From the NCBI RefSeq assembly GCF_024529955.1, contig NZ_AP024854.1, forward strand, positions 682,001 through 746,000: a DNA stretch of 64,000 nt. Reading direction: 5' to 3'. Below, one piece after another: positions 42,264 through 43,628 of this stretch. This DNA is from Photobacterium toruni (GTDB lineage Bacteria > Pseudomonadota > Gammaproteobacteria > Enterobacterales > Vibrionaceae). Below the pieces are notes generated by a model. That model worked only from the letters and a program-made list of their open reading frames with translations, was not told the DNA's origin and did no database searches. Each line of letters opens with the position of its first letter. Within the stretch, counting starts at the first letter, position 1. A program made the position numbers and the translations under genes.

Positions 42264-42343
42264 CGGTGATTAGCGTAGTTTGATAACGCATCTCTGATGT
42301 TAGGAATAGCGAGCCAGAGGGTTTACCTTCCAGCAGCATTCCT
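42264..42343 (+). pseudogene. tRNA-Pro-like element 1 (diverged copy)
   Basis: It starts like tRNA-Pro (CGGTGATTAGCG, D-arm region), then departs at the anticodon loop and has no T-arm or acceptor 3' strand. It differs from elements 2-5 at several positions, including the small hairpin GAGGGTTTACCTTC. It directly precedes tRNA-Pro copy 1. Confidence 0.8.
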
Positions 42344-42354
42344 AAAAAATTAGT

Positions 42355-42431
42355 CGGTGAATAGCGCAGTTTGGTAGCGCATCTGGTTTGGGACCAGAGG
42401 GTCGGGGGTTCGAATCCCTCTTCACCGACCA
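42355..42431 (+). tRNA. tRNA-Pro(UGG) copy 1
   Basis: 77 nt with encoded CCA; anticodon TGG within stem TCTGG/CCAGA; acceptor CGGTGAA/TTCACCG. Resembles E. coli proM. Confidence 0.97.
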
Positions 42432-42511
42432 CTATTTAAATAGTAGTGGTTTATAAAATCATTATTATCAGAGAACGCGTTAATTAATAACACTTCTCAA
42501 AAGAATTAAGT

Positions 42512-42592
42512 CAGTGAATAGCGTAGTTTGATAGCGTATCTCTGATGTTAGGAATAGCGGACCAGAGGGTTGACCCTTTTAACAGCGTTCCT
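42512..42592 (+). pseudogene. tRNA-Pro-like element 2
   Basis: 81 nt. Starts CAGTGAATAGCG, keeps the D-arm, then has the alternative middle (CTCTG ... CAGAG stem with an 18-base loop), hairpin AGGGTTGACCCT, and terminal TTCCT. Precedes tRNA-Pro copy 2. Confidence 0.85.
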
Positions 42593-42607
42593 AGAAAAGA
42601 ATTAAGT

Positions 42608-42684
42608 CGGTGAATAGCGCAGTTTGGTAGCGCATCTGGTTTGGGACCAGAGGGTCGGGGGTTCGAATCCCTCTTCACCGACCA
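42608..42684 (+). tRNA. tRNA-Pro(UGG) copy 2
   Basis: 77 nt, anticodon TGG, encoded CCA; identical to copy 1. Followed 9 bp later by tRNA-His. Confidence 0.97.
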
Positions 42685-42693
42685 CTTACAATG

Positions 42694-42769
42694 GTGGCTA
42701 TAGCTCAGTTGGTAGAGTCCCGGATTGTGATTCCGGTTGTCGCGAGTTCAAGCCTCGTTAGCCACCCCA
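42694..42769 (+). tRNA. tRNA-His(GUG) copy 1
   Basis: 76 nt with encoded CCA, anticodon GTG in TTGTGAT. A G at 42693 supplies the G-1 position that pairs with the C73 discriminator, typical of tRNA-His. Confidence 0.96.
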
Positions 42770-42822
42770 TTATTTAGGTTATCTTGTTAAGATACCTTGG
42801 CTTTGTAAGCCTAAAACATTGT

Positions 42823-42899
42823 CGGTGAATAGCGCAGTTTGGTAGCGCATCTGGTTTGGGACCAGAGGGTCGGGGGTTCGAATCCCTCTTCACCGACCA
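42823..42899 (+). tRNA. tRNA-Pro(UGG) copy 3
   Basis: 77 nt, anticodon TGG, encoded CCA. The only internal Pro copy not preceded by a tRNA-Pro-like element; it follows tRNA-His directly. Confidence 0.97.
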
Positions 42900-42982
42900 C
42901 TATTTAAAAGTAGTGGTTTATTAAAACCATTATTAGAGAATATGCAGTTTATTTAATTATATTTCTCAGCAAAGAATTAAGT

Positions 42983-43063
42983 CGGTGAATAGCGCAGTTT
43001 GATAGCGCATCTCTGATGTTAGGAATAGCGGACCAGAGGGTTGACCCTTTTAACAGCGTTCCT
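42983..43063 (+). pseudogene. tRNA-Pro-like element 3
   Basis: 81 nt. The 5' 30 bases match tRNA-Pro except G-to-A in the D-loop (TTTGATAG). The middle and 3' parts are as in element 2. No acceptor 3' strand and no CCA. Confidence 0.85.
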
Positions 43064-43077
43064 AGAAAAGAATTAGT

Positions 43078-43154
43078 CGGTGAATAGCGCAGTTTGGTAG
43101 CGCATCTGGTTTGGGACCAGAGGGTCGGGGGTTCGAATCCCTCTTCACCGACCA
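43078..43154 (+). tRNA. tRNA-Pro(UGG) copy 4
   Basis: 77 nt, anticodon TGG, encoded CCA. It lies exactly 255 bp after copy 3 and 255 bp before copy 5. Confidence 0.97.
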
Positions 43155-43236
43155 CTATTTAAAAGTAGTGGTTTATTAAAACCATTATTAGAGAATATGC
43201 GGTTTATTTAATTGTAATTCTCAGCAAAGAATTAGT

Positions 43237-43317
43237 CGGTGAATAGCGCAGTTTGATAGCGCATCTCTGATGTTAGGAATAGCGGGCCAGAGGGTTGACC
43301 CTTTTAACAGCGTTCCT
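43237..43317 (+). pseudogene. tRNA-Pro-like element 4
   Basis: 81 nt, identical to element 3 apart from GGGCC in place of GGACC in the central loop. Confidence 0.85.
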
Positions 43318-43332
43318 AGAAAAGAATTAAGT

Positions 43333-43409
43333 CGGTGAATAGCGCAGTTTGGTAGCGCATCTGGTTTGGGACCAGAGGGTCGGGGGTTCGAATCCCTCTT
43401 CACCGACCA
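43333..43409 (+). tRNA. tRNA-Pro(UGG) copy 5
   Basis: 77 nt, anticodon TGG, encoded CCA. Followed by tRNA-His copy 2 with the same 9-bp spacer as at copy 2. Confidence 0.97.
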
Positions 43410-43418
43410 CTTACAATG

Positions 43419-43494
43419 GTGGCTATAGCTCAGTTGGTAGAGTCCCGGATTGTGATTCCGGTTGTCGCGAGTTCAAGCCTCGTTAGCCACCCCA
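43419..43494 (+). tRNA. tRNA-His(GUG) copy 2
   Basis: 76 nt, anticodon GTG, encoded CCA, with a G at 43418 for G-1. Identical to copy 1. Confidence 0.96.
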
Positions 43495-43547
43495 TTATTT
43501 AGGTTATCTTGTTAAGAGACCTTGGCCTTGTAAGCCTAAAACATTGT

Positions 43548-43628
43548 CGGTGAATAGCGCAATTTGATAGCGCATCTCTGATGTTAGGAATAGCGGACCA
43601 GAGGGTTGACCCTTTTAACAGCGTTCCT
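43548..43628 (+). pseudogene. tRNA-Pro-like element 5
   Basis: 81 nt. Same architecture; CAATTTGATAG in the D-arm is a private change. It lies between tRNA-His copy 2 and tRNA-Pro copy 6. Confidence 0.85.

Follow-up and report, generated by a model that had tools for sequence, protein, structure and literature searches.

The rtT RNA of the Escherichia coli tyrT locus is encoded in repeats that are attached to a tRNA operon and contains a piece of the tRNA; it lies downstream of the tRNA and carries the tRNA 3' end. An RNA that is carried by a tRNA operon and holds tRNA sequence is thus of a known kind. Two further systems show that a stable-RNA transcript can give rise to side products which are small RNAs and have partners. 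The small RNAs RrA, RrB and RrF of E. coli rRNA operons are formed by read-through of the first terminator, and their structure is conserved between genera (PMC8144298). The 3'ETS of glyW-cysT-leuZ is a processing fragment of a tRNA precursor and pairs with the small RNA RyhB (PMC6191717).

In the window (the whole analysed stretch of 64,000 nt, positions 682,001-746,000 on contig 1 of the 4.5 Mb genome of Photobacterium toruni), a Pro/His tRNA operon carries five elements of 91-96 nt, termed class A, each directly 5' of a tRNA-Pro(UGG) gene. Related elements, termed class B, are found 3' of tRNA-Pro operons. The likeness to rtT is that of a tRNA-operon RNA containing a tRNA piece; the tRNA is a different one, and class A differs further in its upstream position and in carrying the tRNA 5' half. 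Class B, which is downstream with the 3' end, resembles the rtT layout together with its terminators, and it is class B, missed by an earlier note on this DNA, that best fits the parallel with rtT drawn there. The Rfam covariance model of rtT gave no match up to E 5 in positions 42150-43900. The arrangement of RrA, RrB and RrF, small RNAs within a stable-RNA transcript, likewise matches class B; they differ in belonging to rRNA operons and in lying between two terminators, and they are not described as tRNA-derived (PMC8144298). The 3'ETS is a by-product of tRNA processing that acts in trans (PMC6191717), as is proposed for the class A RNA; it is a 3' trailer, and class A a 5' leader or spacer.

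Compared with a canonical tRNA (RF00005), class A has the 5' acceptor strand, the D-arm and GGACCAGAGGG from tRNA-Pro, and has no acceptor 3' strand and no T-arm. Neither ARAGORN nor the tRNA family RF00005 called any of the five elements, and both the six Pro and the two His genes of the operon were called. In the Rfam search no family matched the class A elements, and none besides tRNA reached its gathering score. A literature search that covered few subscription papers found no description of class A or class B elements; four unpredicted tRNAs, detected by RNA-seq in one intergenic region of P. profundum, may or may not relate to them (PMC3505737). No Rfam match and no description in the literature covered were found, and the family looks new, as do the place that it takes upstream of the tRNA and its taxonomic range.

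Layout of the Pro/His operon

The features of the operon, all on the + strand, follow each other in the order promoter-like site, e1, Pro, e2, Pro, His, Pro, e3, Pro, e4, Pro, His, e5, Pro and terminator; tRNA genes were called by ARAGORN, and elements were delimited by sequence comparison and folding. The promoter-like site TTGCTA-16-TATTAT (42201..42228), followed by a GC-rich discriminator, was read from the sequence and is weak by itself, being one of four sites that a promoter consensus scan found where 4.9 were expected by chance. Element e1 (42262..42352) precedes tRNA-Pro(UGG) 1 (42355..42431), and e2 (42510..42605) precedes tRNA-Pro(UGG) 2 (42608..42684), behind which tRNA-His(GUG) 1 is located (42694..42769). 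The third tRNA-Pro(UGG) gene (42823..42899) has no element in front. The reference copy e3 (42981..43075) stands before tRNA-Pro(UGG) 4 (43078..43154), e4 (43235..43330) before tRNA-Pro(UGG) 5 (43333..43409), which is followed by tRNA-His(GUG) 2 (43419..43494), and e5 (43546..43641) before tRNA-Pro(UGG) 6 (43644..43720). The operon terminator AACCTGAATCGAAAGATTCAGGTT, with a T run behind it (43730..43759), was recognised by eye; a consensus scan for terminator-like sites in 41900-44000 listed none and so missed this one too. A decayed class B element that has lost its D-arm (43782..43841, + strand) lies 3' of the terminator, and a second terminator-like repeat was read from the sequence behind it (43852-43879, + strand). 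Local alignment of the decayed element to an intact class B copy of P. piscicola (L133), with the terminator omitted, scored 51; the best of 200 shuffles reached 40.

All five elements of the earlier note are present, with starts 2 nt earlier and lengths of 91-96 nt instead of the 80-81 nt given there. Each stands upstream of an intact tRNA-Pro, as had been described, with 93-98 nt between the starts of element and tRNA. The first ~30 nt of tRNA-Pro are kept in every copy with few changes, and the T-arm, the acceptor 3' strand and CCA are absent from all five, also in agreement with that description; e2-e5 were rightly called near identical and e1 drifted (86% to e3). The suggestion that one element is made per Pro gene does not hold: six Pro genes stand against five elements here, and in another genome (L012) three elements in a row lie ahead of one Pro.

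Elsewhere in the window, a Leu/Gln/Met array on the - strand (17742-21192) comprises 26 tRNA genes in repeated blocks; its near-identical spacers of 33-83 nt were inspected by eye, and no tRNA-like elements were seen in them.

Predicted fold of the elements and its conservation

In the predicted fold, P1 joins the 5' acceptor strand to five bases after the D-arm region, P2 is the D-stem, P3 is formed by UUAGGAAU with GUUCCUAG, and P4 by AGAGGG with CCCUUU. In e3 (+ strand), the 5' strand of P1, a copy of the tRNA 5' acceptor strand, was placed at 42981..42985 (partner 43013-43017) and that of P3 (UUAGGAAU) at 43019..43026 (partner GUUCCUAG, 43058-43065), both from the fold and the covariation tests; the P4 hairpin AGAGGG-UUGA-CCCUUU (43035..43050) was placed from the fold and the hand alignment. 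The drifted copy e1 has a perfect P3 (UUAGGAAU/AUUCCUAA), in which two wobble pairs become Watson-Crick pairs. The minimum-energy folds of e1-e5 had z-scores of -2.4 to -3.9, and 0, 1, 2, 3 and 1 of 200 shuffles, respectively, folded as well. Both the TAGGAA/TTCCTA pairing, which is P3, and the AGGGTTGACCCT-type hairpin, predicted in the earlier note, occurred in five of five folds; the 5-bp anticodon-like stem CTCTG/CAGAG that it had proposed was absent from all five and is fully paired in one of 32 sequence clusters. A stretch of 203 nt that begins behind the -10 site and runs through the whole of the first tRNA-Pro was predicted to fold as a leader hairpin, P1/P2, P3/P4 and a cloverleaf (z -4.6). 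When copies were folded alone, 8 of 21 preferred another, more tRNA-like minimum-energy fold.

A purine-rich stretch, GAWWA-R-G-Y, which is not in the tRNA, adjoins the tRNA sequence GGACC and forms the core of the elements; in e3 this conserved core is GAAUAGCGGACC (43023..43034, + strand; comparison across clusters). The core pattern, chosen after looking at the sequences, fits 27 of 32 clusters against a shuffle mean of 0.7. These clusters were obtained at 80% similarity from 105 class A sequences, 11 of 116 distinct sequences having been dropped (10 were the same elements at a wrong offset and one contained N).

MAFFT alone misaligned the 3' strand of P3, and the covariance model was built on an alignment made by hand, in which 14 of the 19 rows prepared were used. 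In this alignment 89.5% of cells pair, and sliding of the partner strand lowered pairing to <49%; covariation was 0.232 versus 0.184 (0/500 shuffles). Six pairs changed on both sides, four in P3 and two in P2; P1 and P4 had no such pair. The count of further pair types stood out less clearly, being reached by 28 of 500 shuffles. Covariation of the D-stem was tried as independent proof and set aside (522/5,000, not significant). An alignment-free strand test was made because the hand alignment leans towards structure. Over the 32 clusters, the energies of P3 strands with their own partners summed to -219.9 kcal/mol, and with permuted partners to -170.8 on average (sd 11.7). The real sum was equalled in 0 of 50,000 permutations for P3 and in 64 of 50,000 for P1. 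An earlier strand test with 10 hand-made groups had given 243/20,000 for P3 and 2,677/20,000, not significant, for P1. All of these permutation counts are approximate and no strict probabilities, since the lineages share ancestry. P3 is weak in some lineages, and only 21 of the 32 clusters have a P3 duplex energy of -5 kcal/mol or lower.

The covariation that the earlier note had named as a check was thus found, for P3 in particular; over these tests P3 and, less strongly, P1 are backed by it. The fold model supported by the data is a tRNA 5' half closed by a new P1, with a long-range P3 around the purine-rich core and the P4 hairpin.

Occurrence in related genomes

BLAST searching (E 1e-9 or better) of 60 genomes gave matches in 22, namely 21 of 36 in the genus (own genome included) and one of another family (G046), which has two elements, each directly 5' of a tRNA-Pro. 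With an E-value limit of 1e-5, the covariance model, built from 14 Photobacterium copies and without the G046 copy, detected matches in 31 of the 197 genomes searched in the order, the own genome among them. As real tRNA-Pro genes also match this model (mostly at 40-45 bits, up to 49), 29 fetched loci were inspected. The G046 copy scored 59.9 bits versus 39.7 and 40.0 for both real tRNA-Pro genes of its locus. Elements 5' of tRNA-Pro were present in three Vibrio-like genomes (G163, G080, G213), in eight genomes of the genus of G046 (G046 included), in one genome of family f6 (G228) and in two of family f10 (G110, G185); the remaining loci matched through the tRNA only. The elements of the genus of G046 were found again in named Psychromonas records, and those of the window are near identical to the elements of P. 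malacitanum (L074) and P. piscicola (L133). Homologues 5' of tRNA-Pro are therefore present in the genus and in other families, which answers the other check named in the earlier note, and their recurrence outside the own family rules out a chance origin.

Scanning the genomes of named species with a pattern yielded 70 stretches. Class A could be parsed in 49 of them, class B in 47 and at least one of the two in 65; the class B count is too high, as the raw list includes real tRNA-Pro genes at a wrong offset. Two stretches were false (L099 and L122, MAG records in which tRNA-Pro is broken by runs of N), L103 was unparsed, and the elements of L077, L105 and L107 are cut by a contig end or N. 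The taxa were Photobacterium, Vibrio, Aliivibrio, Enterovibrio, Grimontia, Psychromonas, Shewanella, Ferrimonas, Motilimonas, Agarivorans, Zobellella and some MAGs; homologues placed 5' of tRNA-Pro were present in Photobacterium, in other Vibrionaceae and in all the genera named here from Psychromonas to Zobellella. NCBI taxonomy places Psychromonas, Ferrimonas, Agarivorans and Motilimonas in Alteromonadales and Zobellella in Aeromonadales. With Vibrionaceae, which belong to Vibrionales, and Shewanella, of Shewanellaceae, the spread amounts to three NCBI orders and at least six NCBI families (four of them looked up). An exact pattern, so strict that it fails on the window's own copies, matched 0 of 369 genomes spread over the class and 42 of 197 within the family; both counts are lower bounds, as the own genome is missed, and they are silent on more divergent copies elsewhere. 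Presence is patchy: no element was seen in many Vibrio-like genomes, and some Pro genes are without one.

Several loci show variants of the arrangement. Of two Motilimonas loci, L117 has five elements in a row and L121 four, repeating every ~100 nt. They belong to a subtype marked by GCGAAGCTC behind the D-arm, which Agarivorans and family f10 have too. Class A model matches at L011 867-954 and L111 5694-5780 (46 and 44 bits, 27% and 33% GC) look like AT-drifted class A copies. In G221 (L057, about 1406-1470), a degraded tRNA-Leu-like copy was seen by eye directly 5' of a tRNA-Pro, in the same position as the elements.

Class B elements have the 5' half and core of class A, plus the acceptor 3' strand and CCA; by eye, several have their own terminator behind them and form tandem arrays (L009, L029, L132). 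The own genome contains two, starting at 44,178 and 44,329 of contig 1, each with CCA and its own terminator; this tandem pair (L009 1178-1480, contig 1 ~44,178-44,480) lies behind a further Pro/His cluster, one that showed no class A element. One of the two copies was predicted to form an acceptor stem of 7 bp and a helix of 15 bp (-40 kcal/mol, z -3.9). The strand test for class B was weak (2,101/50,000), with 75 usable copies in 17 clusters that include L122 and the doubtful L127.

Probable origin, rival readings and proposed role

The element boundary equals the tRNA boundary, and the 5' 28 nt are identical to the own tRNA in 43 of 104 copies, while 80 of 104 agree with it at 26 or more positions; for these reasons the element probably began as a tandem tRNA-Pro copy. 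The earlier note had left a choice between dead hybrids spread by array duplication and a tRNA-derived RNA, an interpretation that is partly supported here. Derivation from a tRNA, multiple copies and near identity within a genome would suit dead hybrids, and the presence of the elements in relatives of other families, the covariation, of P3 in particular, and the conserved core render that account highly improbable. A tRNA pseudogene with no constraint beyond shared descent was likewise rejected in view of the covarying P3 and the conserved non-tRNA core, and from sequence the elements are unlikely to be dead gene copies. Conservation within the genus is in keeping with this. When eight related Photobacterium sets were compared (28 pairs), mean identity was 95% over element bases 31-90, with 98% for best matches, and 64% over the 60 nt upstream, with 88% for best matches; part of bases 31-90 is the tRNA-derived GGACCAGAGGG, and concerted evolution could add to the identity. 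The main rival is a tamed duplicate, an insulator without positive function: degenerate tRNA-Pro copies would recur and be selected only against misfolding of the real tRNA, gene conversion would keep the 5' half tRNA-like, and P1 and P4 would hide the tRNA-derived pieces that could invade it. The 5' matches to the own tRNA, the patchy presence and the decay of class B in the window agree with it. So does the mean predicted native pairing of the downstream tRNA, which was 0.49 with the real element versus 0.35 with its non-tRNA parts shuffled (31 of 32 clusters, Wilcoxon p 6e-7), about that behind a wholly shuffled leader (0.50) and below that of the tRNA alone (0.87); such a test, however, can be passed by any stable structure. 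An insulator does not predict a purine-rich core outside the tRNA sequence that is shared across families, nor persistence over three NCBI orders (Vibrionales among them), and the Leu/Gln/Met array of the same window, equally repetitive, holds no such copies by eye. It is regarded as rather unlikely.

Element starts lie 93-103 nt ahead of the tRNA in 101 of 105 copies, the collection itself having required a Pro start at 75-112 nt. This near-constant placement would suit a cis-acting pre-tRNA element, in which P3/P4 and the A-rich linker position RNase E or RNase P, or tune the maturation or expression of tRNA-Pro. Seventy-six placements fell in neither class A nor class B. Behind 45 of them lay a further element and behind 11 a contig end; 19 had no tRNA in the next 180 nt, and one proved to be a real tRNA-Pro that had been mis-set. 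In the 20 that could be judged no non-Pro tRNA followed within 180 nt, which also favours a cis role. The Pro gene at 42823 without an element, the runs of several elements before a single Pro and the many Vibrio-like genomes without any speak against such a role, which is considered improbable. Further candidates were discarded. For a phage origin, one exact core pattern gave 0 matches in viral contigs. An ATG-led frame of ~23 codons was seen by eye in e3, and many lineages are without such an ATG. A T-box leader or attenuator was not supported by an expression platform, by a terminator-like site (scan of 41900-44000, in which the operon terminator was missed too) or by an Rfam T-box match. 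A general habit of tRNA arrays to breed such copies finds no example by eye in the Leu/Gln/Met array.

The preferred reading is a conserved, structured RNA module derived from tRNA-Pro that is released as a small RNA during tRNA maturation; as a whole it is given a probability of about 0.5. Tandem duplication of tRNA-Pro(UGG) and replacement of the 3' half would have produced class A, and exchange with the real gene would keep the 5' half of the element current. By its position class A would be transcribed with the tRNAs. In the predicted fold, the acceptor strand of its tRNA 5' half is locked in P1 over the D-stem, P3 encloses the purine-rich core and the P4 hairpin, and an A-rich linker remains before the real tRNA. 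RNase P must cut 5' of each tRNA-Pro, and the structured element would therefore be freed; RNase P and RNase E, in maturing tRNA-Pro, would release the structured piece. It may persist as a small RNA of ~80-120 nt whose amount tracks the output of the tRNA operon, and its core AUARGCGG-ACC is the probable place of contact with a partner, be it a protein or an RNA.

It is considered very probable that selection maintains class A as a conserved, structured RNA; that class A acts as a released small RNA is put forward tentatively, at somewhat less than even odds. A more speculative and rather doubtful reading is that tRNA-Pro long ago gave rise to a family of small RNAs that act in trans. Across three orders of mostly marine bacteria, transcripts of tRNA-Pro would then also be the source of a structured RNA that carries the conserved purine-rich core, in an upstream form A and a terminator-ended form B with an acceptor stem, and the dose of this RNA would report stable-RNA synthesis to a conserved partner. 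Apparent tRNA pseudogenes beside real tRNA genes are usually ignored. Here they point to a conserved RNA family with a covarying helix, tied to one tRNA isoacceptor in at least six NCBI families, and provide a set of loci in which it may be asked whether tRNA duplicates become new RNA genes and whether tRNA operons give off regulatory RNAs of their own.
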